Of a stretch of DNA of 35,552 nt, positions 7,447 through 35,552 are shown in pieces. Numbering within the stretch: the first letter of the stretch is position 1; each line of letters starts with the position of its first letter. The stretch is taken from positions 1 to 35,552 of the forward strand of contig JAUNPS010000042.1 in NCBI GenBank assembly GCA_030536575.1, in the 5' to 3' direction. The notes beneath the pieces are model-generated. The model made no database searches, had not been told where the DNA came from, and was given only the letters and a program-made list of their open reading frames with translations. Both the position numbers and the translations under genes were made by a program. The DNA is from Eubacteriales bacterium. GTDB lineage: Bacteria; Bacillota; Clostridia; Lachnospirales; Lachnospiraceae.

Positions 7447-8817
7447 TTACCGCCCCTGCCGTTCGTCCAGAATGTCCATAATGTCGCCGAGTCCCCGGTG
7501 CGTGGTCACGACCACCACATAATCCCCGACCCGCATCGTATCCTGCCCGCGGGGGATGATCATCTTTCCGCCCCGGTAAATACTGGCGATCAGCAGGTTA
7601 TCCTTCAGCTTCAGCTTCTCCAGCGGGGTATCCAGGATCGGCTCATTCTTCACCAGCTTGAACTCCAGGGCTTCCACCCGGTCCCCGACCAGATGATACA
7701 GGGTTTCCACGTTGCTGCCGATGGAATTTTTCATTGCCCGGACAAATCCGATGATATATTCCGCGGTAATGTATTTCGGGTAAATGATGCTGTCCAGATC
7801 CAGGGTCTCGATCACCTCATCGAAGGCCATTCCGTTAATCTTCGTAATGATTTTGGCCTTGGTCTTTTTCTTGGCAAACAGAGAGAGGAGCACATTTTCC
7901 TCGTCCATATTTGTCAGCGCCACGAAGGAATCCGTGTTCAGAAGCCCTTCTTCAATAAGCATGTTCTGCTCCACCGCGTCGGCGCAGATGATCGTAGCCT
8001 TGGGAAGGCTTTCACTCAGCTCTTCGCACCGCTTCCGGTCTTTTTCAATGATTTTCACATCAATACCCATATGAAGGAGCATCTCGGTCAGATAATAGGT
8101 CAGTTTGCCGCCGCCTACGATCATCGTATCCCATACCTGGTTCGTCTGGACTTTAATCTTTTTGAAAAACTGCGCCGCCGTTTTTGGCATGGCAATGATG
8201 GAGATCACGTCCTTTTCCCGCAGCTCAAATGTACCGGTGGGGATCACGACCTCCTCCCCGCGCTCCACGGCGCAGACCAGCACATCGCTGTGCAGCTTCG
8301 TCATAATCTCCCGCACCTCCATCTGGTGAAGGATGGAGCCGGGCTGAATCTTAAATTTTAAAAGCTCTACCCGGCCTTTGGCGAAGGTTTCGATCTTGAT
8401 CGCGCTGGGGAAGCGTAAAAGCCGCGCCATCTCGGCCGCCGCGGCCAGTTCGGGATTGATCACCATGGCAAGCCCCAGCTCTTCTTTTATGTAATTGCTC
8501 TCCTTACTGTATTCCGGGTTCCGGACTCTGGCAATGGTCTGGCAGTTTCCGGCTTTTTTCGCGATCAGGCAGCATAAGAGGTTCAATTCGTCGGAGCCGG
8601 TCACTGCGATCATCAGGTCGGCTTTTTCAATCCCGGCCTCCTCTAAAATCTTGTGGCTGCTCCCGCTTCCCACCACGCCCATGATATCCAGCTCCGTGGA
8701 TAAATCCTGAACCAGTTCATACTTTGTATCAATGACGGTAATGTCATTATTTTCTTTGCTTAACTGCTCTGCCAGGGCGGAACCGACTTTTCCGCACCCC
8801 ACAATAATGATATCCAT
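7447..8817 (-). CDS. trkA: Trk system potassium transporter regulatory subunit TrkA
   Basis: A 456-residue peripheral membrane protein with two RCK units, each a Rossmann NAD-binding domain followed by a TrkA_C domain. The first begins with IIIVGCGKVGSALA and the second with MIVGGGKLTYYL near residue 230. Such proteins bind NAD(H) or adenine nucleotides and gate TrkH. Length fits full-size two-RCK TrkA. An AGGAG site lies 7-8 nt before the ATG. It leads the operon trkA-trkH-amidohydrolase. A hairpin at 8846-8861 separates it from the tcdA stop. Confidence 0.95.
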   Translation of the reverse strand: MDIIIVGCGKVGSALAEQLSKENNDITVIDTKYELVQDLSTELDIMGVVGSGSSHKILEEAGIEKADLMIAVTGSDELNLLCCLIAKKAGNCQTIARVRNPEYSKESNYIKEELGLAMVINPELAAAAEMARLLRFPSAIKIETFAKGRVELLKFKIQPGSILHQMEVREIMTKLHSDVLVCAVERGEEVVIPTGTFELREKDVISIIAMPKTAAQFFKKIKVQTNQVWDTMIVGGGKLTYYLTEMLLHMGIDVKIIEKDRKRCEELSESLPKATIICADAVEQNMLIEEGLLNTDSFVALTNMDEENVLLSLFAKKKTKAKIITKINGMAFDEVIETLDLDSIIYPKYITAEYIIGFVRAMKNSIGSNVETLYHLVGDRVEALEFKLVKNEPILDTPLEKLKLKDNLLIASIYRGGKMIIPRGQDTMRVGDYVVVVTTHRGLGDIMDILDERQGR

Positions 8818-8841
8818 CTTTTCTCTCCTGTAAATGTCAAA

Positions 8842-8861
8842 ACTTGGCGGAATCTCCCGCC
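8842..8861 (-). terminator. Weak terminator-like hairpin after tcdA
   Basis: On the minus strand GGCGG, a 6-nt loop and CCGCC (8861 down to 8846) are followed by AAGTTTTG. The stem is short and the U-run interrupted, so read-through into trkA is likely. Confidence 0.4.
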
Positions 8862-8884
8862 GCTTCTACAAAATTCAATCTGAA

Positions 8885-9607
8885 TCATCCATCATAACTC
8901 GCAGCGCACAAATCTTTCACCACTTCCCCGGCCAGAATCAGCCCGGCCACCGAGGGCACAAAGGCCGCGCTTCCGGGGAGCGCGCGTTTTCCATCCTCCG
9001 CAATGGTCACGGAGGGCTTCCTGGGCGGTTCCTTCGAATAGACCACCTTCAGGCTTTCGATCCCTCTGGCTTTCAGCTCTTTTCGCATGACCTTCGCCAG
9101 GGGACAGACCGAGGTCTCATAGATATCCGCCACCTCGAAGGCGGTGGGATCCAGCTTATTCCCGGCTCCCATGGAGCTGATCACCGGCGTATTTGTCCGT
9201 TTGGCGCGGACAGCCAGTTCCAGCTTCGCCGTCACGGTATCCACGGCGTCGATCACATAGTCGTATTTCTCCAGCGGATACTGATCCGCATTTTCCGGAA
9301 GGTAAAAACAGTTATGGACTTCCACCACCGCTTCCGGGTTAATGTCCAGAATCCGTTCTCTCATCACTTCCGTCTTCGGCCTTCCGACCGTACTGTGCAG
9401 GGCAATGATCTGCCGGTTCAGATTCGACAGGCTGACCACGTCCTTATCAAATAATTCCAGATGCCCGACTCCGCAGCGGGCCAGGGCTTCTGCCGCAAAC
9501 CCGCCCACGCCGCCGATGCCGAACACGGCGACCCGTGCCTTTGCCAGCGTTTCCAGGGCTTCCTCCCCCAGAAGGAGGCCAAGCCTGCTAAACTGCTCCT
9601 GTGCCAT
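8885..9607 (-). CDS. tcdA: tRNA threonylcarbamoyladenosine dehydratase
   Basis: A 240-residue E1-like ATP-dependent enzyme. It matches TcdA (CsdL), which cyclises t6A at position 37 of ANN-decoding tRNAs into ct6A. The nucleotide-binding motif FGIGGVGGFAAE, the FDKDVVSLSNLNRQ segment and the YDYVIDAVDTVTAK segment are all characteristic. Length is normal for the shorter bacterial form. The ATG follows a GGAGG site 8 nt upstream, which lies within the 15-nt gap after the preceding small gene's stop, so the two form an operon driven from 10059-10087. Confidence 0.93.
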   Translation of the reverse strand: MAQEQFSRLGLLLGEEALETLAKARVAVFGIGGVGGFAAEALARCGVGHLELFDKDVVSLSNLNRQIIALHSTVGRPKTEVMRERILDINPEAVVEVHNCFYLPENADQYPLEKYDYVIDAVDTVTAKLELAVRAKRTNTPVISSMGAGNKLDPTAFEVADIYETSVCPLAKVMRKELKARGIESLKVVYSKEPPRKPSVTIAEDGKRALPGSAAFVPSVAGLILAGEVVKDLCAASYDG

Positions 9608-16032: not shown

Positions 16033-18462
16033 CGTGCTCTCAGCTCCATCGTAGGAAACGGTCTGGATGATGTCGCCGAGGGTGACGGTGAAGGTGCGCA
16101 TTGCAGGCATTCCGGGATAACTGCCTTCTGCTTCGTGGATGGTCAGGCATTTTTCGGAGTCATCCCAGGTGAGGGGGATGCGGCAGTATTCGCCCTGCTC
16201 GTAGCCGTAGCCGTCCCCGGCGTCTTCATAGAGCGTAAAGGCAGCATCCGCGCCCGGATAAATCCGCAGATTTACGGGTTTCGTCAAAGGCTGGGCGGCG
16301 TACTGGATTTTTTCTCCGTTCATCGGAAGGATGCTTCCGGCTTTTACGAAGAGGGGCAGATCGCCAAGTTCCGCTTTGACAGTTACGTACTGGCCGCCTT
16401 CGTATTTTTTCCCGCTCCAGTAATGATACCAGCCCGCGCCTTTCGGCAGATAGCAGCGCCAGGTCTTCTCCCGGTCAATGGGCTTGCTCCCGGCTTCGTA
16501 ATACATCGGCTCAGTCACGGGGCAGACCAGGAAAGACGGCCCAAACAGGTATTCGTCGCCGATTTCTTTCGCCTTCGGATCCTTGCCAAAATCGAACAGC
16601 AGGCTCCGCATAATCGTTGCATTGTCCAAGGTCACGCTTCCGGCCAGGGAGTAGATATAAGGCATGAGCTGATAGCGCAGTTCAATGTATTTTTTCAGCG
16701 CATCATAGAAGGGCGTTCCCGGTTCCCCGAAATTCCAGATTTCCCGCGGCGTATCGGTTCCGTGGGAACGGTGCATCGGCAGGAACGTCCCGAATTCGAA
16801 CCAGCGGGTGTACAGTTCCCGGTAGCCCAGATCCTCCACACCGTCGTTGTACTCACCTTTCCAGAACCACAGTGGGTCAGGGTTCGTATTGCAGCCGCAG
16901 CCACGCTTCTGCCAGGCGCTTCCCACCACGAAGAAGGCGCCGATGTCCAGTGTCCAGTAGGGCATGCCGCTCATTGCCATATTTAACCCCTCTGTGATCT
17001 GCCGTTTTAAGGTCTTCCAGGACGCGTAAATGTCTCCCGACCACAGCATCACACCGTATTTCTGCTGGGACGCGTAGCCGGAACGGGTCAGGTTCAGCAC
17101 GCGCTTATCGGGCGCGTCTTTCCGCTGGTTCTCGAAAATGCCCTTGGCATGCATCAGCGCGAAGGCATTCGCCTTGGCGGCATCCAGATATTTTTTATGC
17201 TCGCCGCCCACCAGCGCGTACCGCTCCCAGGGCTCCCGCTTCACCTGGCCGCCCCAGTCCGGGCCGGAGAATGGCTCCGTGGAGTCGCACCACCAGGAAT
17301 CAAAGCCTTCGTCGAACAGCCCTTCTTTCGCCTGCTTCCAGTAGACTTCCCGCGCCTTCTCGTCAAAGGCGTCATAGGTGGAAAAGTCGCCCAGAATCTG
17401 ATTGTTTTCCACAAATTCCCGATGGTTTTCCCCGCCTTCCGCCATGTTCGGCCAGACGGATACCATGGTGTGGATGTTCATTTCATGAAGCTTTTCGTTC
17501 ACTTCGCGGATATTGGCGTAGCGCGTCTTATCCACCGTTTTCTCGCCCCAGATGCCTGGCTCCCAGGTATTCCAGTCCTGGACAATGCAGTCCAGCGGCA
17601 CGCCGCTTTCCCGGTAGGCCTTTCCGATCTCCAAAAGCTCGTCCGCCGTGCGGTAAGCTTCTTTCGACTGCACGTAGCCATAGGCCCATTTCGGCAGCAG
17701 GGCGGCCTTTCCGGTCAGCCTGCGGTAGCCGTCGATCACATCGTCCAGCTTTTCTCCGGCAAGGAAATAGTAGTCCATCTGATCCACCGTGTCCAGAAAC
17801 AGGTAGGAACCATTCTCGTCATCCTGGAACGTCATCAGGGAACAGCAGTCTACCAGAATGCCATAATTTTTCGAAGAAACAAACATTGGCATCGGAATGC
17901 GCATATTATGCTGGTACAGATACTGGCTGTGATGGCGGTAATTATAAACGCCTTCCTCCGCCTGCCCCAGGCCGTAAATGCCTTCGTCCGCTTCCCAGTC
18001 GAAATACAGCTTTGCCCGGTAGGCTTTCCGGTCGGCAATCTGTTTTAAATTCTCGATAAAACTGCGCTCCCCGTCAACGGTCTTTACCCGTTTTACCACT
18101 GGAGGTTCTCCGCCGGTCGTATAGCGCACCACCTCTTCTTCGCACATTTCCCGTCCGGCTTCCCGCAGCCACACTTCGCCGCTGTCTGCGTCCGTCCAGG
18201 TAACTGCGCCGGTTTCCTTCGAAAATACGGCCTTGATGCGGCCGCCAAAGACTGTGATCTCCGCCTCGTCTTCTTCCATGTAAACGGGCTGGCGGCTCTC
18301 ATAGACCGACGGCTCGATCATCAGGGACTGATTTTCAATTTCTTCTTTTTTCGTAAAGACCAGGCGCATCACCGCATCCGAAATGCCGAAAAATCCATAG
18401 ATTCCTTCCGCTGTCCGGATCTGTACCCGGCCTTCCCCCTGGGTAATCTGTAAAATTTCCAT
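16015..18462 (-). CDS. Glycoside hydrolase family 31 (alpha-xylosidase/alpha-glucosidase-like)
   Basis: An 815-residue GH31 enzyme without a signal peptide, so probably cytoplasmic. An N-terminal beta-sandwich precedes the TIM barrel. The nucleophile motif is WWCDSTEPF (Asp393) and the acid/base is Asp477 in LWSGD, preceded by LTRSGYASQQKYG. The C-terminal part (from about residue 650) fits the proximal beta-domain and DUF5110. The DxTEP form of the nucleophile motif is found in several alpha-xylosidase-like GH31 branches, so release of alpha-linked xylose or glucose from oligosaccharides is likely, but I cannot fix the substrate. No transporter or sugar regulator is adjacent. A possible -10, TATACT, is at 18504-18509. 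Confidence 0.9.
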   Translation of the reverse strand: MEILQITQGEGRVQIRTAEGIYGFFGISDAVMRLVFTKKEEIENQSLMIEPSVYESRQPVYMEEDEAEITVFGGRIKAVFSKETGAVTWTDADSGEVWLREAGREMCEEEVVRYTTGGEPPVVKRVKTVDGERSFIENLKQIADRKAYRAKLYFDWEADEGIYGLGQAEEGVYNYRHHSQYLYQHNMRIPMPMFVSSKNYGILVDCCSLMTFQDDENGSYLFLDTVDQMDYYFLAGEKLDDVIDGYRRLTGKAALLPKWAYGYVQSKEAYRTADELLEIGKAYRESGVPLDCIVQDWNTWEPGIWGEKTVDKTRYANIREVNEKLHEMNIHTMVSVWPNMAEGGENHREFVENNQILGDFSTYDAFDEKAREVYWKQAKEGLFDEGFDSWWCDSTEPFSGPDWGGQVKREPWERYALVGGEHKKYLDAAKANAFALMHAKGIFENQRKDAPDKRVLNLTRSGYASQQKYGVMLWSGDIYASWKTLKRQITEGLNMAMSGMPYWTLDIGAFFVVGSAWQKRGCGCNTNPDPLWFWKGEYNDGVEDLGYRELYTRWFEFGTFLPMHRSHGTDTPREIWNFGEPGTPFYDALKKYIELRYQLMPYIYSLAGSVTLDNATIMRSLLFDFGKDPKAKEIGDEYLFGPSFLVCPVTEPMYYEAGSKPIDREKTWRCYLPKGAGWYHYWSGKKYEGGQYVTVKAELGDLPLFVKAGSILPMNGEKIQYAAQPLTKPVNLRIYPGADAAFTLYEDAGDGYGYEQGEYCRIPLTWDDSEKCLTIHEAEGSYPGMPAMRTFTVTLGDIIQTVSYDGAESTVSFRR

Positions 18463-26696: not shown

Positions 26697-27395
26697 TTAC
26701 GGAACATCATTCCGTATACCCTCAATAATCCTCCCAATATTACATGTCACTTTTCCCCTGCACTTATGAATATCCTCATTAATTTTTTTCTCCTGCTCTA
26801 TCGCAATTTCCACCTTTTTCGCCAATTCCCCAATTGCCGGATTCTTCTTCGAATTAATCCCCGTTCTTGCCAGCAGAAGCTTATAAATAAAAGTCTGGTT
26901 ACCGTCCTTTTCATTTCGGATAATCTGCTCTTCATTCGGTTGGATGTCCTCCGCATAGGCGTTTTCAAAATGAAGCAGTAAAAATAATTCAAATGCCGGG
27001 TTGCTCACGGCAAGTATATTCTCCGTCTCTCCAAATGTAATCAATTCTTCATAGTTTTGCACCTTTTCTTCAAAAATATCTGCATCAAACACAATAATCA
27101 TCTGGTCACGTTCTTTGTCAAATCCAATATCCGGATTCTCTTTCTGACTTGCCGCAAAGGCAATTAACTTCCTTGGGAAACTAATATCCCGATCTCCTTC
27201 TGTTTTTTCAAGCAAACAAATATCAATCAATGGATGAATACACAGTTCCTTTCGAATATCAATTAGTTTCCTGAAATACCATGTTTCTGTATTCGCTCCT
27301 TCGCAAATAAAAAAATATTTCCGATATGGCTCAATCTGTTCTGCCGCGTCGGTACTTCTGCTGTTCCAGTTCGTATAGCTTCTGACAGGAGCCAT
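26697..27395 (-). CDS. RloB-family protein (AbiLii-like), effector candidate of a defence pair
   Basis: A 232-residue RloB-domain protein. Family marks are CEGANTETWY (Glu32), VFDADIFE (Asp104, Asp106) and SNPAFELFLLLHF (131-143). The Glu and DxD pattern fits a Toprim-like nuclease fold. RloB proteins occur with AAA15 ATPases in the lactococcal AbiL system (AbiLi/AbiLii) and in restriction loci. The ATG lies 2 bp after the stop of the ATPase gene, with the ribosome site inside that gene, so they are strictly coupled. By analogy the ATPase senses phage and RloB acts as a nuclease-type effector; this is inference. AT-richer than the flanking genes. Confidence 0.88.
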   Translation of the reverse strand: MAPVRSYTNWNSRSTDAAEQIEPYRKYFFICEGANTETWYFRKLIDIRKELCIHPLIDICLLEKTEGDRDISFPRKLIAFAASQKENPDIGFDKERDQMIIVFDADIFEEKVQNYEELITFGETENILAVSNPAFELFLLLHFENAYAEDIQPNEEQIIRNEKDGNQTFIYKLLLARTGINSKKNPAIGELAKKVEIAIEQEKKINEDIHKCRGKVTCNIGRIIEGIRNDVP

Positions 27396-27397
27396 TC

Positions 27398-28753
27398 TTA
27401 CCCCTCCTCTCCATATTCAAAGGAACGAAATATCGGAATCGCACCATATCTTCCTTCCAAATATGCTTTACTCAGCACTTTATCATATCTTTCTTTAAAT
27501 CGGTCCAATGAATAAATGACACTGGCATTTTCCGCATTTCGCTCCACAAACCAGATTTCATCACGCCGGAAAAGGCTTTGATCCATGATCGCAGATTCAT
27601 GTGTCGTAAACAATAACTGCATACGTTCTTCATAATGTAACTGCATAAATAACTGTAAAAATCGCTCTGTCAGTTTTGGATGCAGACTCCTTTCCAGTTC
27701 ATCCACCACATACAACACATCCTCCTTTTTATTAAGCAGCATATCCATCAAATCAAATATGCGCCGTGTTCCATCTGATTCCTCTTCAAATCCAAAGTCA
27801 TAAAAAGATTTCTCGTGCTTTAAACGGATCGTCGTAACTTTTGGTTCTGAATGCCCTTCTGCCTCAATGCTAAAAAAGTTCTCACTTGATCTCATCGTCA
27901 TTTGGAAAGATGAATTTTCCTTCTCTTCGATCCGTTTTTTTACATGACGCATGACATTCTCAAACACGGCCTTTGGCATGGCATTTGCCAATTCATCAAG
28001 TGAAATTTCTACGATTTCCACCTTACGGATTCCCGTGTCAAACGTTTCAATCAGTTTATTAATTAATTCCAAAGAATCCATATCATAATAGTACGTAAAA
28101 TCAATGAACGGTGTATGCGGCGTAATCACTACAATGTGATTTTGTATCCAATCGTATACATCCCTAAAAAGCAATAGTTTTGAACGCTCCGAATATTTCT
28201 TCCCTCGATTCATCTCCGTCAAAAAAAGAGACGTTTCATTTCCTTCGAAATCATCCGCATAAATTTCAAATTTATTTTTCTCTGTATTTGTCAAAGTAAC
28301 TGTTTCATCCAAAATCGGACGTTTCTTACCCTCACGCTCAAAGAGCCGCCGTGAGGAACCATTCTGGTAGAGTTCGTATAACCATTCCGCTGTAATTTTT
28401 CTTTTACTCAAAACTGCCGAAAAACCATATGCATAAAACTTATCACCAAGCGTAAGTTGAATTTCAAAATTACTTTCTTTTTCTCTATTTTCTTTCCTGT
28501 TTTTACAGAACATAGATGCCGATTCCATAGGAATTCCTTTGTTTACACATTCTTTAAAAAAATGGAAAAATTCCGTTAAATTCGTTTTCCCAGCGGCATT
28601 CGCACCATATACCACTCCATATTTTAATAACGGCGTACTCTTTATTTTCAAACGATGGTCTGCATTTGTGCGAATCTTATTGGAAGAAATCATAGTTAAT
28701 TCTACCGTCTGATCAAAAGATTTAAAATTTTCTACGCTGATTTTCACTAACAT
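27398..28753 (-). CDS. AAA15-type ATPase (RloA/AbiLi-like), sensor candidate of a defence pair
   Basis: A 451-residue ABC/SMC-like ATPase of the AAA15 (OLD-related) group. Walker A is GANAAGKT (residues 50-57) after the usual ISVENFKSF start. A signature-like segment EEESDGTRR, Walker B VVDELERSLHP (Asp351, Glu352) and a switch His in TTHES follow. No Toprim domain is fused; the nuclease-like part is the RloB partner downstream. I start at ATG 28751-28753, with AAGGAGG 8 nt upstream, not at the GTG three codons earlier. A consensus promoter directly precedes it. Low GC relative to neighbours suggests acquisition by transfer. Confidence 0.88.
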   Translation of the reverse strand: MLVKISVENFKSFDQTVELTMISSNKIRTNADHRLKIKSTPLLKYGVVYGANAAGKTNLTEFFHFFKECVNKGIPMESASMFCKNRKENREKESNFEIQLTLGDKFYAYGFSAVLSKRKITAEWLYELYQNGSSRRLFEREGKKRPILDETVTLTNTEKNKFEIYADDFEGNETSLFLTEMNRGKKYSERSKLLLFRDVYDWIQNHIVVITPHTPFIDFTYYYDMDSLELINKLIETFDTGIRKVEIVEISLDELANAMPKAVFENVMRHVKKRIEEKENSSFQMTMRSSENFFSIEAEGHSEPKVTTIRLKHEKSFYDFGFEEESDGTRRIFDLMDMLLNKKEDVLYVVDELERSLHPKLTERFLQLFMQLHYEERMQLLFTTHESAIMDQSLFRRDEIWFVERNAENASVIYSLDRFKERYDKVLSKAYLEGRYGAIPIFRSFEYGEEG

Positions 28754-28771
28754 CCTTCTCACCTCCTTGCT

Positions 28772-28905: not shown

Positions 28906-30510
28906 TTATTTCGTCTTTACCGTCACTTTCACCTTCACCGACTTCTTCCCGGCCTTCACCGTAATCGTCGCCGTACCCTTCTTCTTCGCCGTAATCTTTC
29001 CCTTACTGCTCACAGAGGCCACGCTCGTATCACTGGATTTATAAGTAACCTTCTGTATGGAAGTTACCGGTGACAACGTGGTTTTAAGCTGGAAGGTTTC
29101 TCCCTTTTTCAGGCTCACATTCTTGCTGTTGACCGCGACTTTTGTCGTTTCAACCGCATTTTTCTGCACCTTCACAGTGATGACCGCGCTCTTTCCGCTC
29201 TTTAACTTGACGGTAATCCTCGCGGTGCCCTTCTTTTTCGCCGTAATCGTGCCTGATTTATTAACCGTAGCGACCTTTGTGTTACTGGACTTCCAGGACG
29301 AGATGCTGTCTCCGGTGCCGTAGGTCACTTTCACAACTTTCGTAGACTGTTTCTCCGCCAGCGTCAGAGTCTTGTAGTTGACCTTAATAGTAGCGGTCAG
29401 CTTTTTGATGGACTTCGTCTGTTTTTTCCCGCACACCGAGCAGGTTTTCGTCTTCACGCCGGCCTTTAACACCGTCGCTTCCCGCGTGGTCTCCCAGGCG
29501 CCGTAGGTATGCTTTCCGGTAGCCGCAATCGACTCGGTTTTCGTCTCATCACAAAGAGTACAGGTATAAGTCTTAACGCCTTTTTTCGTGCAGGTCGCTT
29601 CCGTGGTCACTTCTCCGCTGTCCCAGATATGGGTGTGCGTTTCGAAAGCAGCCAGGACGCATTCCGCAATGACTTTATGGCCCGCCGCATTCGGATGGAA
29701 ATCCAGGTTCATCGTCGCAGCCGAAGCATTGCACAGGTTCTCCGACTGGCTTTCAAATGCCGTATAAACGTCAGCGACAAGATACCCGGCCGCAGACGCA
29801 TTCGCCTGAATCTGCTGGCTCAGAAGCTTCGCGCCGTTTCCGATTCCGGTATTCAGAGAGGTATACATCGTCCCTGCAAAAGCCTTGTACGGATTATACT
29901 GGGTGGTCACGATCACAACCGCCGTCGGATTCACGCTGCGGATCGCCGCCATCACCTGATTCAGCCCCTGGATAAAGCTCGTAAGTCCCTGCGTAAAGGC
30001 CGGGCTGTCCGCAAAAGCCGGAATCCCGTTCGCCGTATCTCCGACCAAGACGCTCTGCGCGCACGCAAGGAGCATCATCCAGTGCGCATCCGAAGAATTC
30101 GCCAGAATGGACGCTACATCCTGGGCCGTAATGTTCCCCTGGTAAGCCGTGTTATAGCTCGCTGCAATCTGCGTGTAAAGCAGGCCCATCAGATCGTTTC
30201 CGCCGCAGGTAATCGTAATCAGGTCTGCGGACTGCACCGCTGTAGTCAGGGTTCCGCCGGCAAGCTGGGTCAGAATGCCGGAAATGGTGTTTCCGTCTTT
30301 CGCCTGATTATTCAGGGTGTAGCCGCCGGATGCCGCCACCTGGCTTGCAAAGCTTTCCGTGCTGGCGTTCGTCAGTCCGTAGCCTGTGGAAATGCTGTCT
30401 CCCAAAGCCAGATAAGAACGGGATTTTTCGGCCAGCGCAGTCATCTGCAGAAGGCCTGTCAGCAGGCAAACCACAAGCAGCAGATTCAAAATGTTACGTA
30501 GTCTTTTCAT
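28906..30510 (-). CDS. Secreted SGNH/GDSL esterase with Cys-rich repeats and two BIG2 domains
   Basis: A 534-residue exported protein. The signal peptide ends near LQMTALA. The SGNH hydrolase domain follows: Ser39 in ALGDSIS, Asn in ITCGGNDL, and the Asp-His pair in DFHPNAAGH, so esterase or lipase activity on acylated surface glycans or lipids is likely. Next are two Cys-containing repeats (CTKKGVKTYTCTLCDETK and KAGVKTKTCSVCGKKQ) and then two BIG2 Ig-like domains, each ending in a KKKGTARITV or KKKGTATITV strand. The C-terminus is a basic Lys-rich tail; no sortase signal is visible. AAGGAGG lies 9 nt before ATG. It follows the surface cassette at 30611-35552 by 100 bp and may share its transcript. 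Confidence 0.9.
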   Translation of the reverse strand: MKRLRNILNLLLVVCLLTGLLQMTALAEKSRSYLALGDSISTGYGLTNASTESFASQVAASGGYTLNNQAKDGNTISGILTQLAGGTLTTAVQSADLITITCGGNDLMGLLYTQIAASYNTAYQGNITAQDVASILANSSDAHWMMLLACAQSVLVGDTANGIPAFADSPAFTQGLTSFIQGLNQVMAAIRSVNPTAVVIVTTQYNPYKAFAGTMYTSLNTGIGNGAKLLSQQIQANASAAGYLVADVYTAFESQSENLCNASAATMNLDFHPNAAGHKVIAECVLAAFETHTHIWDSGEVTTEATCTKKGVKTYTCTLCDETKTESIAATGKHTYGAWETTREATVLKAGVKTKTCSVCGKKQTKSIKKLTATIKVNYKTLTLAEKQSTKVVKVTYGTGDSISSWKSSNTKVATVNKSGTITAKKKGTARITVKLKSGKSAVITVKVQKNAVETTKVAVNSKNVSLKKGETFQLKTTLSPVTSIQKVTYKSSDTSVASVSSKGKITAKKKGTATITVKAGKKSVKVKVTVKTK

Positions 30511-30610: not shown

Positions 30611-31453
30611 TCATCCCCGCTTTCTTCGGTACGCCAGTGCGCCTCCAAGGAGTCCCGAAAGCAGCATTGCAAGCCACCAAAAGAGGAGCGGACTTTCATC
30701 GCTGGTCTTCGGGGAAGCGGATTCGGCTTCTGTAGGAGATTCCGTCGCAGAGGAACCTTGCTGCTTTGGCTGTTCGCTTTCCGTGGGTGATTCTGTGGGG
30801 TCTTCCTGCCCTGGCAATTCACTTTCGGTCGGCGGCTCTGTCGGCTCTTCTGTTCCCGGCAATTCACTTTCGGTCGACGGCTCCGTCGGCTCCTCCTTCT
30901 CGGACTGCCCGGCTTTTTCCACAAACACGTAATAGTCGCTCTCTCCCAGGGTAAAGGTAACCGCATTGCCCGCGGCCTGGGCGGACATTTCCTGCACCTC
31001 CTCATCTGTTCCAAGACCGTATAGAGACAACGACGGAACAGTCTCCGGCAGCGCAATCGTAACAACCGCTTTCGGAACACTGACGCGGTTTCCTTCCTGA
31101 TCGACAAAATAAATTTCAAATGGATAGCGCGTCGTTCCCCGGTCGCCCATACATTTCCGAATCCACTCCCAGGCTTCCCGGTCGCTCTCCGGAATCGGAT
31201 AGACGACCAACGTCAGAGAATCGTCGGCCAAATCCGTAATGTCGAGGCGTGTACCGTCCGGAAGCGTCATCTGGGCTTTTCCGTTTTCCACAGGCGCCGT
31301 ATAAAAATTTTTCTCTCCCGCCTGGTATGTGGCTAAAATGCCGAACGAGGTCTGGGTTTCTTGCTGAGTTCCTTCCGCTTCGCCTGCCTGGCAGGACGCT
31401 GCGGCGCCGCACAGAAGCAAAGCAGACAGGAAAATAGCCGCTGTCCGTTTCAT
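30611..31453 (-). CDS. Exported protein with TEP repeats and sortase-like C-terminus
   Basis: A 280-residue surface protein. The signal peptide ends in GAAASC, which could be a weak lipobox. Residues about 30-185 form a domain ending in ALPETVPSLSLYGLG...DYYVFVEKA, similar to a region of the large protein at 34090. A Pro/Glu/Ser/Thr linker follows, with a 45-bp tandem duplication (from 30813 and 30858; unit TEPPTESELPG). The C-terminus reads SPKTSD, a hydrophobic helix, then RRKRG, like a class of sortase sorting signals with Ser where Gly is usual. Its ATG overlaps the previous stop (ATGA). It is last in the six-gene run of exported proteins. Function unknown. Confidence 0.8.
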   Translation of the reverse strand: MKRTAAIFLSALLLCGAAASCQAGEAEGTQQETQTSFGILATYQAGEKNFYTAPVENGKAQMTLPDGTRLDITDLADDSLTLVVYPIPESDREAWEWIRKCMGDRGTTRYPFEIYFVDQEGNRVSVPKAVVTIALPETVPSLSLYGLGTDEEVQEMSAQAAGNAVTFTLGESDYYVFVEKAGQSEKEEPTEPSTESELPGTEEPTEPPTESELPGQEDPTESPTESEQPKQQGSSATESPTEAESASPKTSDESPLLFWWLAMLLSGLLGGALAYRRKRG

Positions 31454-31950
31454 GGCAGTTCTCCTTTGCTGATTGTCGTCTTCAGGCTGACGCTTCCGGC
31501 ACTGTAATACGTGTCCGGCTCGTAAGCCATAATTTTGAGTTTAATGGTTTCTCCATCCGTCACATCGGCTGTCAGCGCAACGGATTTCACATATTCGCCA
31601 GGCTTTAAAAGCCCCGTCTCACCAAGGATTTCGCCGTCTTCGTTCAAAATGCGCAGTTTCAGCCAGACGTCGAAGCCTTCGGCGTTCGTAAAGTAAACGA
31701 CAGCGGAACTGCCGTCTGTAATCACATTTCCGCAGACGCTGGCTTTAAATGCCATGCCTTCCTGATAGATTTCGGACCAGCCAAGGGAGGCGTCGACGGT
31801 GGGGGTTCCGGCGACGGCGGCTGGGTCGAAGGAGGGCGGGGTGAAGGTAGTCGTCTGCTGTTTTTGGTGGAAGGCCAGGGCCAGCGCCATGAAGATGAGG
31901 GAAAGGGCGCAGAGCGCGGCGGCGGCTGGCAGGAGCCATTTCTTTTTCAT
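31450..31950 (-). CDS. Single-TM exported protein, paralog of 33551-34087
   Basis: A 166-residue protein with an N-terminal membrane anchor or signal (residues 5-27) and an outside beta-rich domain. The segment GLLKPGEYVKSVAL...DGETIKLKIMAYEPDT aligns with GTLHPGYKVEQLAL...SEGTYTGKYIVLYYDPDT in the protein at 33551-34087, so the two are related. No family is known to me; the fold suggests an immunoglobulin-like or FixG-like accessory domain. An AGGAGG site lies 8 nt before ATG, after a 125-bp gap containing the hairpin at 32018-32044. The stop overlaps the next gene. Confidence 0.75.
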   Translation of the reverse strand: MKKKWLLPAAAALCALSLIFMALALAFHQKQQTTTFTPPSFDPAAVAGTPTVDASLGWSEIYQEGMAFKASVCGNVITDGSSAVVYFTNAEGFDVWLKLRILNEDGEILGETGLLKPGEYVKSVALTADVTDGETIKLKIMAYEPDTYYSAGSVSLKTTISKGELP

Positions 31951-32017
31951 GGGGATCTCCTCCTGTCATCTGTCAAATTTTTCCCAAAGGGGATTTGGGG
32001 AAAATGTCACAGGTGAG

Positions 32018-32044
32018 GCTGCCAGGCGAGGAGCGCCCGGCAGC
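32018..32044 (-). other. Strong hairpin inside the surface-protein operon
   Basis: On the minus strand GCTGCCGGGCG and CGCCTGGCAGC (32018-32044) pair at 10 of 11 positions around a 5-nt loop. There is no adjacent U-run. A second small stem, CCCAAA/TTTGGG, follows. It lies between the highly secreted-type genes and the anchor genes and may set differential mRNA stability. Confidence 0.5.
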
Positions 32045-32075
32045 TTTGGGTCGTCGTTTGAAACAGAGTGTTTGG

Positions 32076-32915
32076 TCAGGAAGTTATCGTAATAACTGAC
32101 CAGGTTGGATTCGTAGGATCACTTATATCAAAAGTAAACTCATACGTTTGTCCGTTCAAACACTTTATCGGAAAATTAGCCGTTACCGTTGAATCTAAAA
32201 CTCCTCCCGTAACTGTGCTATAGGTTACTCCATTAATTATAAAGTAAACTCTCATAGTTGTATTGGCAATTCCATTATAGACAGCAGTATAAATCCCTTC
32301 AGTCTCTGTTTCATATATTTCAATATCATTGCCTGATGGATTCTTCATAGTAGCTACCGTTCCTATAGCAGCTACTTTCCCCCCTTTAATACTCACCGTT
32401 ACTTCTCCTACAACCGTATTTGCGGATGTTTCATCCGATAAAGTACCATTTAACGAAAGCTGAACCTCGCCACTGGGCGCTTGTGCCTGCTCAGATCCCT
32501 CAACCGGGCTATCAAGAGAAAGTAGTGTCTTATCAAAGCTGCCGCTAATTCCACTGCCGTTTGTTTCTGTGTAAGTAAACGAAGCCGTAATTCCTGTATT
32601 CGAGTGATTTGTCACCGTAATTTTGTCTGCTCCCTCATCGCAGCTCCACTTGGCTTCCCCTGGCGTTTCTATAAAGATCAAATTCTCTGTATCCCAGGTT
32701 CTAGTTGCCCCTGAATGATAAAAATATTCAAGGCTTCCCCACGCCACATCTACATAGTAAACCGTATCCGTAGTCGTTGCTTCTTCGCTATAAGTCGCTT
32801 TAATCGCTACCGTATCCTCACTTGGAACAACACTCTCCTCAGCATATACCACAGAACTTACCGATAATGCTAAACTCAATGCAAACACTTCTATTATTCT
32901 TTTTTTCCTTTTCAT
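32076..32915 (-). CDS. Secreted protein with the shared AWGS-type domain (subunit B)
   Basis: A 279-residue secreted protein; the signal peptide ends in VVYA. Residues about 50-190 contain the domain shared with the two upstream genes: YYVDVAWGSLEYFYH, then a Trp-Asp step, KWSCDEGADKITVTNHSN, and later LSLNGTLSDE and VVGEVTVSI. The last 80 residues add a further beta-rich module (FPIKCLNGQTYEFTFDISDPTNPTWS, quoted in part). No lipobox or sorting signal. ATG overlaps the previous stop (ATGA), with GGAGG 10 nt upstream. Its base composition is AT-richer than the genes on both sides. I know no function. Confidence 0.75.
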   Translation of the reverse strand: MKRKKRIIEVFALSLALSVSSVVYAEESVVPSEDTVAIKATYSEEATTTDTVYYVDVAWGSLEYFYHSGATRTWDTENLIFIETPGEAKWSCDEGADKITVTNHSNTGITASFTYTETNGSGISGSFDKTLLSLDSPVEGSEQAQAPSGEVQLSLNGTLSDETSANTVVGEVTVSIKGGKVAAIGTVATMKNPSGNDIEIYETETEGIYTAVYNGIANTTMRVYFIINGVTYSTVTGGVLDSTVTANFPIKCLNGQTYEFTFDISDPTNPTWSVITITS

Positions 32916-33490
32916 TGTGTTACTACCTCCTCTGCATCCGTAATCGTTACCGTTACGCTACCAATCGGCGTGCTTTCCGCATCTTTATCCTCCAGCGCCC
33001 CAGCCAACGTAATGATAGTAGATGCCTCCGAAGCTGTCCCTTTTTCCGTTGTCGTTGCTCCCAAAGATGCATCTGCCAACTGCAACTCTTCTTCTTCCAC
33101 GCTCGCCTCTATCTTCATATAATCCGTCTCAGTGCTTATTTCTGCTTTAATCGTAGCTGTCAATGCCTTATTTGAGTAGTTCGTCAAACTCACTTTGTTT
33201 GCATTCTCCTCACATGACCACGTTCCTTTTTCAGCAGTGCTTTCCGTATAGGAATGCGTTTGCGGATTCCATACCTTTTCAACAGCAGGTGCATGATAAG
33301 TAAATTCCATACTTCCCCATGCAATATCAACCGCATATACTGTCGGCGCTTCCTCTACCGGAACATACGTAACAGATACATCATGACTGTCCCTTCCTCC
33401 ATTTGACTGTATCGTGGCCGCAAAAGCCGCTGTACTGAGGGATAGCACTAGCATCCCGGCTAATCCCAGGCTGAATAATCTTTTTTTCAT
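32912..33490 (-). CDS. Secreted protein with the shared AWGS-type domain (subunit A)
   Basis: A 192-residue secreted protein; the signal peptide ends in TAAFA. The mature part is essentially one copy of the shared domain: VYAVDIAWGSMEFTYH, VWNPQTHSYTE, TWSCEENANKVSLTNYSN, then a beta-rich end IITLAGALEDKD...IGSVTVTI. I start at ATG 33488-33490, with AAAGGA 8 nt before; an ATG 7 codons earlier has a ribosome site 13 nt away. Compact size, abundance-type signal and lack of anchor suggest a released or polymerising surface subunit, but that is inference. Confidence 0.78.
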   Translation of the reverse strand: MKKRLFSLGLAGMLVLSLSTAAFAATIQSNGGRDSHDVSVTYVPVEEAPTVYAVDIAWGSMEFTYHAPAVEKVWNPQTHSYTESTAEKGTWSCEENANKVSLTNYSNKALTATIKAEISTETDYMKIEASVEEEELQLADASLGATTTEKGTASEASTIITLAGALEDKDAESTPIGSVTVTITDAEEVVTQ

Positions 33491-33550
33491 CGTCTTCTTC
33501 CTTTCTTTCATTTTTTATCTGAAACCTCCTTCATCAGAAGTCTGTTTCCC

Positions 33551-34087
33551 CTACTCCGTAACCGTAATCTCAATCCCTTCAATGCTCCCGTTCAGAACCG
33601 CCTTCTCCGCCGTATCCGGATCATAATACAGAACAATGTATTTTCCGGTATAAGTCCCTTCGGAAAGCTTCGCCGCCCCTTCAATGAGCGCAAGCTGCTC
33701 CACCTTATACCCCGGATGCAGCGTGCCGGACTGCGCGATCACCGTCTCCTCCCCCTCCGCATCCACAATCACAATCTGCAATACAATGTCATTTACCGAC
33801 TTCGACGGATTCTGAAACAACAGGCTCGCCAGATTCTCCGAAAGGGAAATCTGCACATTTTTCTGATAGATCATACTGACCGCACCGCCGCCCTCAGCCG
33901 CTTCCATCTTTTCCTCTGACGCTCCTTCCGAAACCGCTTCGGCGTATTCCTCCGCCTCCTGCGGCGCGTAATCCGGAGCCAGCTCCGGCGCCGTATCCCG
34001 GAAAAACAGCGTCCATATCGTCACGCCCACAGCCGCCGCTGTGATGAGCAGCAAAATAACAATCAAAATCTTCGACTTTTTCGACAT
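33551..34087 (-). CDS. Single-TM exported protein, paralog of 31450-31950
   Basis: A 178-residue protein with an N-terminal anchor (residues 7-25), an acidic linker (about 35-65) and an extracellular beta domain from VSMIYQKNVQISLSENLA to the C-terminus. It shares the G-L-x-PG...PDT pattern with the protein at 31450-31950. The ATG lies 2 bp after the stop of the large protein gene at 34090, so the two are translated together. A membrane-anchored accessory or assembly role is plausible; no family recognised. Confidence 0.75.
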   Translation of the reverse strand: MSKKSKILIVILLLITAAAVGVTIWTLFFRDTAPELAPDYAPQEAEEYAEAVSEGASEEKMEAAEGGGAVSMIYQKNVQISLSENLASLLFQNPSKSVNDIVLQIVIVDAEGEETVIAQSGTLHPGYKVEQLALIEGAAKLSEGTYTGKYIVLYYDPDTAEKAVLNGSIEGIEITVTE

Positions 34088-34089
34088 TT

Positions 34090-35552
34090 TTACGCTTCCT
34101 CCTCGATCTGTTCGTAGGTTATCTCCCCGATGCTTTCGCTTAGAAGCGCGGTGTCCGGTTTTCCGTCAAGTACGACAAGAACCGTTACAGCCTCCCCCGC
34201 CGGAATGGTCACTTCACAAATTTCTTCTCCATTCAAATCCGTAAAACTTCCTGTGATTTCGCCATATTCCTGCAAGGACTGATAGGACAGGATGAGGGTC
34301 ACGTCCTGTTCACTGTGGTTGGTCAGGAGAACTTCATTGCTTCCGTCTGCATAAATCCAGCCGCCTGCGGTGCCGCCCTCATAACAATGCGTATGCGGAT
34401 TCCATGTGCCTGTAGTTCCGGGCTGGTATACGACAGCTTCGGCGGACACGCTGATTTCGATTTCAGCGCATGTGGATTCTGGCTCCAATTCTGGCTCCAA
34501 TTCAGTCTCCGACTCCGTTTCCGATTCGTTCAGTATTTCAGGCTCAGTTTCTGATTCTGGCTCTGGTTCGCTCGGCAGTTCAGGCTCGGTTCCTGCTTCA
34601 GATTCGCTCTCGCTCTGCAATTCGGACTCACTCTCCGCTTCCTGCCCGGACGCACCCTCGTCCTTCGTTTCGGACTCGCGTTCTATTGCGGCCCCGTTTT
34701 CCGTCTGGGAATCCTCCTGGCACAGCCGATATGCTACCGCATAGGTTCCGAATGTCCGTCCTTCAAAAGAAATGCGCGAGATTGCCGTATCTAAATCGGT
34801 ACAAATAATAATCTGGCCGTTCTGAACAAAAATAAGAATGGCTTCTTCTGCCTCCGCAGGCACATCCGACAGCTCCAAAATCATCCGCAGGCTCTCCGCG
34901 CTTTCATAAACTCGCGTCCACCCTTCCCCGTCAAGTCCTTTTTTCAAACGGAGCACAAACGACTGGCCCGCTGTATAACCGTTTTCCGCTATCCATTGTG
35001 TCAGGACTTCCTGTTCTGCCTCAATGGCGCTTCGTTCTTCCTGTGTCAGTTTCTGGTCATCGCTCTTTTCCGCTTCTTCCTTTAAAAGTTCCTCCGCAGA
35101 GTCCGCAGAAATCCGGACAGTTCCATGACCGCCCCGCATACGCTCTTCTTCCGAGAACAATGCTTCGGCAAAATCCTGCGAATCCTCTTCGATTTTTAAC
35201 TGATTTTGGCCAAGTTCGGATACGACTGCCAGTGTAATGGACAAGTCTTTCTTTTCAGAAGAGAGCTGGTCGGTGTTATCCTGAGATTCCGAGCTGCCCT
35301 CCGAAATCGACTCGGTAAATGGTTCCGACACGGCTTCCGTCGGGGGTTCTGTTGGTTCTTCCGTCACAGGTTCCGTCAGCGCTTCTGTTGTCGGTTCTTC
35401 TGTCCACGACTCGGTTGGCGTCTCCGTCGGTTCTTCCGACGCAGGTTCCGTAGGCGCTTCCGTTGTCAGTTCTTCCGCTACAGGTTCCGTCAGCGCTTCT
35501 GTCGAGACTTCTTCCACCACAGGTTCCGCCGGTGCTTCTATTGGCGCTTCTT
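34090..35552 (-). CDS. Large acidic surface protein with TEP repeats and AWGS-like domain, 5' end missing
   Basis: The frame is open to the right edge, giving 486 visible residues. The first 80 are repeats of the type EPTEAPTEP, then a central domain ending in a segment (LSDVPAEAEEAILIFV...GTYAVAY) that resembles one in the protein at 30611. Next is an acidic Glu/Ser/Pro repeat linker (about residues 290-360). The C-terminal 125 residues carry a divergent copy of the shared domain (TWNPHTHCYE, WIYADGSNEVLLTNHSE). No C-terminal anchor is seen. The signal peptide and any N-terminal domain lie outside the window, as does the operon promoter. Confidence 0.75.
   Translation of the reverse strand, partial: EAPIEAPAEPVVEEVSTEALTEPVAEELTTEAPTEPASEEPTETPTESWTEEPTTEALTEPVTEEPTEPPTEAVSEPFTESISEGSSESQDNTDQLSSEKKDLSITLAVVSELGQNQLKIEEDSQDFAEALFSEEERMRGGHGTVRISADSAEELLKEEAEKSDDQKLTQEERSAIEAEQEVLTQWIAENGYTAGQSFVLRLKKGLDGEGWTRVYESAESLRMILELSDVPAEAEEAILIFVQNGQIIICTDLDTAISRISFEGRTFGTYAVAYRLCQEDSQTENGAAIERESETKDEGASGQEAESESELQSESESEAGTEPELPSEPEPESETEPEILNESETESETELEPELEPESTCAEIEISVSAEAVVYQPGTTGTWNPHTHCYEGGTAGGWIYADGSNEVLLTNHSEQDVTLILSYQSLQEYGEITGSFTDLNGEEICEVTIPAGEAVTVLVVLDGKPDTALLSESIGEITYEQIEEEA

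Follow-up and report, generated by a model that had tools for sequence, protein, structure and literature searches.

We identified a compact cluster of six genes at one end of a 35,552-nucleotide contig (JAUNPS010000042.1, assembly GCA_030536575.1) from a Eubacteriales bacterium of the Lachnospiraceae. This contig, G000:C77 in our numbering of genomes (G), contigs (C) and loci (L), makes up the whole of what is called the window here. In order of transcription, the cluster encodes a large protein bearing a domain that we term W (W-large, 34090–35552), a membrane-anchored protein (H-A, 33551–34087), two small exported subunits (W1, 32912–33511, and W2, 32076–32915), a second membrane-anchored protein (H-B, 31450–31950), and an exported protein with a sortase-like C-terminal tail (LP, 30611–31453). 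All of these genes, and the features within them given below, lie on the reverse strand. The successive gaps of 2, 39, -4 (an ATGA overlap), 125, and -4 bp agree with the close, one-directional spacing noted in the original prediction, which was made from the sequence of the window alone, and they suggest that the six genes are co-transcribed. Promoter-like and terminator-like matches in a scan of the window were at chance level. Because the contig stops at base 35552, W-large lacks its 5' end, and its open frame spans 34090–35550. The cluster at L011, in another genome, is preceded by a gene for a GHKL protein. A search of the window's genome for this protein gave distant matches at most and did not locate the missing 5' part of the cluster. 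Signal peptides were assessed by eye, and W-large is probably exported, judging from its relative in L011.

W-large is acidic and rich in repeats, and carries its W domain at the C-terminus (34117–34485, amino acids 356–478; iterated profile E 3e-33). The domain occupies amino acids 43–190 of W1 and 36–176 of W2, which continues into a C-terminal extension of about 100 amino acids. A genome search with W1 recovered the other two W proteins at E values of 3.4e-20 and 3.2e-5, BLASTP matched W1 to W-large at 2e-8, and the iterated profile detected all three at 3e-33 or better; two tryptophans are invariant in the alignments. When the six proteins and two neighbours were searched against Pfam and NCBIfam, no family passed threshold for W, and all rows of the W (19) and H (14) alignments gave only sub-threshold matches in Pfam. 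The original prediction was thus correct that these three proteins share a domain and that it has no named family. Matches of W-large to Trypan_PARP and MSCRAMM lie in the acidic repeats and were rejected. In clusters of the window's kind (type I) from other genomes, W-large proteins range from 467 to 2071 amino acids, with W at the C-terminus or at most 12 residues from it. The front parts of the three that were scanned differ, containing a metallophosphoesterase and Big_2 (L048), Calx-beta (L047), or an M26-like N-terminal region that falls below cut-off (L051). Because these fronts vary before a constant C-terminal W, the domain looks like a constant coupling domain.

The predicted structure of W1 is an immunoglobulin (Ig)-like sandwich with a core (residues 57–192) mostly at block pLDDT values of 78–95. 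Residues 1–50 are at 47–55, even though residues 45–49 (VSVTY, 33365–33379) are conserved; this segment is unplaced in the model. W2 carries a related segment at residues 38–42 (IKATY, 32790–32804), and we regard both, which approximate the pattern V-x-[A/G]-x-Y, as candidate donor strands. No such segment precedes the W domain of W-large. Donor-strand subunits hold rank 3 and ranks 5–7 in the Foldseek results for W1, including an archaeal thread protein (E 0.038) and CfaB (about 0.05), and Fimbrial_CS1 is matched by one of the 19 W rows (E 0.0012). Against the sequences of solved structures, the best E value for W was 0.27, which was not taken as homology. WxL, DUF916 and TasA are absent among the VIA structural matches listed for W and H, an absence that carries no weight against them.

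The two membrane-anchored proteins also have a domain in common, as had been proposed. H-A and H-B match by BLASTP at 3e-4 and are united by iterated profile searches into a single family, H, of which they represent two subtypes with linkers around PDYAP and F-x-PP-x-F, respectively (FTPPSFD in H-B). Each begins with a transmembrane (TM) helix; the model of H-A has a helix at residues 3–28, consistent with a single N-terminal TM anchor, followed by one Ig-like domain. Nothing passed threshold for H in Pfam or NCBIfam. Two matches of H among the sequences of solved structures, a designed Ig protein (E 0.0062) and CS6 subunit A (0.03), were not taken as homology, and the one Foldseek match below 0.001, a CTLA-4 chain (8.7e-4), was read as generic Ig similarity. 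A search of viral contigs with H found no relative.

The C-terminus of LP (30614–30715) consists of SPKTSDESP, a hydrophobic stretch, and RRKRG. The sortase-like signal that was originally noted at SPKTS is therefore plausible, although the NCBIfam LPXTG model scores it at 13.2 bits, below its cut-off of 15.9. Sortase-like tails are found on the LP proteins of the window, L011, L012, L016, L047, L048, and L051. At L049 the tail is replaced by choline-binding repeats, and the LP end at L050 appears to resemble that of L049. Because LP keeps its place while the type of anchor changes, its attachment to the wall is supported. Four sortase matches in the window's genome exceed the cut-off. They lie on contigs C89, C93, and C62 and not on the contig of the cluster, which is cut at the 5' side of the cluster.

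A scan of contigs revealed six W loci in five organisms: a Eubacteriales metagenome-assembled genome (MAG; two loci), a Clostridia MAG, Evtepia gabavorous, an Oscillospiraceae MAG, and Ruminococcus bicirculans. Five of the six include an H gene, the exception being L015, on a 9.6-kb contig. In a sample of 299 genomes from the window's own family, W (counted at E<=1e-5) is present in 13, and in 12 of these the same fetched stretch carries H; in the thirteenth (G283) the contig stops 107 bases after W-large. Across 398 genomes sampled from the whole phylum, the window's genome alone has W, and the two other searched genomes of its genus lack it; the system is thus patchy. The genes are kept together, as the original prediction required: the order W-large, H, one or more W genes, H, LP recurs at six loci in five genomes (the window, L011, L047, L049 and L050, both from G220, and L051). 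L048 has no second H, and L012, L013, L014, and L016 are shorter versions. None of the papers listed in literature searches describes this cluster, judged by titles and abstract openings. On the evidence of its sequences, this is a real, conserved surface operon without a name, whose W and H domains match no named family over threshold in Pfam or NCBIfam.

A second layout (type II) is found at L009, L010, L052, L058, L059, and L056. Here H is fused behind a GLUG-like region, and the W domains are mostly on large proteins. The GLUG-like region begins its frame without a visible signal peptide, ahead of the TM helix and H domain, and so may face the cytoplasm. Response-regulator genes lie near L009 (by Pfam) and near L010 and L052 (by eye). 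L056 is a decayed locus; an apparent fusion of helper and W there (L056:611-2827) was rejected as evidence of interaction because it contains an in-frame stop and runs into an apparent W-large tail. Among other variants, G127 (L053–L055) has 11 W matches, including a run of several small W genes and three large frames, each roughly 1950–2070 amino acids long and each with a W match. The R. bicirculans cluster (L016) is flanked by two near-identical inverted frames (8256–9188 and 16397–17329; 931 of 933 bases), transposase-like by eye, and may have moved as a unit.

At p<=0.05, the N-terminal segment is present in 19 of 25 small type I rows and in two of 15 large ones (Fisher 2.0e-4), with row classes set from length and position, domain matches restricted to those below 1e-10, two anchors set by hand, and the 5'-truncated L012:1630-2121 omitted. 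One of the large positives, L049:9189-9956, is apparently a small subunit whose frame is too long, and the other, L013:12100-13179, is the third W gene of its locus. None of the 11 first-gene or lone large type I proteins has the segment, in a regrouping that was made after the rows were seen and that excludes both domains of L013:10567-12057 (both negative).

We interpret the cluster as a module for surface display or assembly by beta-strand complementation, which would work like WxL systems or donor-strand pili and probably belongs to neither, and we hold this reading with about even confidence. The Ig-like sandwich of W would require a partner's strand to be complete. In the small W subunits, the donor strand would lie near the start of the mature protein, at the V-x-[A/G]-x-Y segment about a dozen residues ahead of the first core strand. 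W-large, with a W domain and no segment, would stand at one end, as cargo or tip, with W1 and W2 joined head to tail behind it. The two H proteins, as chaperone or anchor, would hold or cap W subunits leaving the Sec channel, and LP, attached by a sortase of the cell, would fix the assembly to the wall. We infer both strand exchange and filaments, and with them a W domain missing a strand, a segment donating it, binding of W by H, and the joining of more than two subunits.

Several observations weigh against this interpretation. The matrix used for the segment was trained on small subunits (leaving out one genome at a time), and the rows are not independent. Six of the 25 small type I rows fail, including W2 of the window (p 0.11 against shuffles), and a loose form of the pattern occurs in eight of the 15 large type I rows. 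In type II clusters the large proteins have the segment in mid-chain (10 of 10 by the loose pattern, five of 10 at p<=0.05), and both small rows fail; the segment may therefore be an ordinary first strand. W has no Foldseek match below an E value of 0.001, and the best Z score, 8.0, is to a eukaryotic MSP domain, indicating that the fold is common. Initial comparisons of W with H and with the set of SCPU-like proteins discussed below had matched signal peptides or N-termini and were rejected. After signal peptides were trimmed, profiles of W were homologous neither to H nor to the SCPU-like set (13.9 and 14.2, respectively, where the highest of 40 column-shuffled controls each reached 12.0 and 15.3).

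The nearest described layout is that of the WxL clusters, in which one C-terminal domain is common to small and large proteins and an Ig-like partner, anchored by a TM helix, is predicted to insert a strand (PMC10599100). The present cluster has the same organization, with exported small and large proteins, a shared C-terminal domain, and a TM-anchored Ig-like partner in a Gram-positive cluster. A display system of this kind without a polymer, in which H is a membrane-held partner that binds each W domain, so that large and small W proteins alike are retained at the wall and W does not chain, is the strongest alternative, and we consider it a serious one of lesser probability. Beyond the cluster logic shared with WxL (PMC10599100), the two H genes of each full cluster would suit a holding role, and the large type II proteins with a mid-chain segment suit display better than chaining. 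However, such display does not predict a segment that is found on small type I subunits and missing from first-gene large ones, and there is no sequence match to WxL, DUF916 or DUF3324: WxL is not among the Pfam families matched by the 19 W rows at E<=0.1, and DUF916 and DUF3324 are not listed for the 14 H rows at the same level. The topology of H differs as well, since H has one Ig-like domain with an N-terminal TM helix, whereas WxLIP has a DUF916-DUF3324 arrangement with a C-terminal TM helix. Neither by sequence nor by H topology does the cluster belong to the WxL systems, from which it also differs in its two H genes and its N-terminal segment. We favour strand-complemented assembly over WxL-like display; H has to hold W in either case, and what separates the two is whether W subunits chain. 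The original prediction, in which small secreted subunits, anchored helpers and a wall-attached base could build a surface layer or fibre, is plausible and partly supported: the parts fit, and the choline-binding repeats at L049 add support for the wall, but polymer-free display accounts for much of the evidence for a layer or fibre.

That the genes merely encode separate, co-expressed surface proteins, with W a stand-alone Ig-like module spread by duplication and H and LP independent of it, agrees with the commonness of the W fold and with the 26 of 38 H-positive genomes that have no W, but is improbable given that H accompanies W in 12 of 13 genomes, that gene order is conserved across several genera, and that H elsewhere again adjoins small secreted proteins.

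Strand-complemented assembly has parallels in other systems. Chaperone-usher pili with CS1- or SCPU-type pilins resemble the cluster in their Ig-like subunits, with weak matches of W to CS1 and of proteins beside other H genes to SCPU, and in type I, though not type II, clusters the N-terminal segment tends to fall on shaft-like rather than tip-like proteins. In donor-strand pili, the N-terminal extension is missing from the tip adhesin. In contrast to that pathway, H is anchored in the membrane and has no sequence resemblance to PapD, W lacks profile homology to the SCPU-like set, and no outer membrane is expected here. Sortase-assembled pili share one component with a sortase-like tail, here LP; W1 and W2, however, end without a sorting signal, and none of the four sortase matches in the genome falls on the contig of this 5'-truncated cluster. 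The TasA-TapA system of Bacillus subtilis is likewise Gram-positive and has secreted beta subunits, an N-terminal donor strand and an accessory protein (PMC9674648). It differs in that the present cluster has large proteins and LP, and TasA/camelysin is missing from the families listed at E<=0.1 for the W and H rows. The archaeal thread (Saci_0406), described as a donor-strand filament outside the usher pathway (PMC9715654), is the third-ranked Foldseek match of W1 noted above, which is not significant.

H is commoner than W, occurring in 38 of the 299 family genomes. We fetched 20 stretches around H genes outside W loci, a subset in which some stretches are adjacent on one contig, and in 17 of them a small secreted protein of another kind adjoins H by eye (exceptions L063, L066, and L076). 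One of 10 such small proteins, L078:6427-6921, matches SCPU (22.7 bits, cut-off 22.4), the pilin domain of archaic chaperone-usher pili. Used alone at E<=0.01, SCPU matched four times in the 299 genomes and not at all in 14 control genomes. Two of the four are free of stops, and both adjoin H genes: the L078 protein, in G024, and a domain on contig C88 of the window's own genome, which scores 21.3 bits, below cut-off, and terminates a cut large protein. A comparison of H with the SCPU-like set, made without controls, covered 79 columns at P 0.0045. SCPU lends thin support. The C88 locus (L060, G000:C88:22001-29998) encodes a large protein, H, two small secreted proteins, and a protein with a sortase-type tail (TGDP-type), together with a two-component pair; by its gene order, it is a repeat of the window's layout with another putative subunit family. 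Neither of its small proteins matches SCPU. Together these clusters could represent an unnamed class of Gram-positive pili, with donor-strand filaments, a large variable tip protein and H as membrane-anchored Ig-like chaperones. A single H family would then serve several diverged families of subunits in gut Clostridia, W and the SCPU-like proteins among them, although we regard so broad a proposal as doubtful.

Two neighbouring regions of the window lie outside the cluster. The gene that follows LP after 100 bp on the same strand (28906–30510) encodes a secreted GDSL hydrolase carrying two Big_2 domains; no counterpart was noticed by eye in the gene listings of the other loci, and it was excluded. 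Farther along (26697–28762), an RloB-like protein (PF13707, E 1.7e-23) adjoins an AAA_21 ATPase, in a region of 38–42% GC in 2-kb windows compared with 50% or more in windows before 26 kb. These two genes are perhaps an acquired defence-like pair.

The six genes form a compact, conserved set without named domains, and their proposed mechanism makes a testable prediction, namely that W1 and W2 donate a strand from their N-termini. H, in 38 of the sampled family genomes, points to additional clusters that contain small secreted proteins of other kinds. If the interpretation is true, it would add a route based on membrane-anchored helpers and a donated strand to the short list of ways in which Gram-positive bacteria assemble surface structures.

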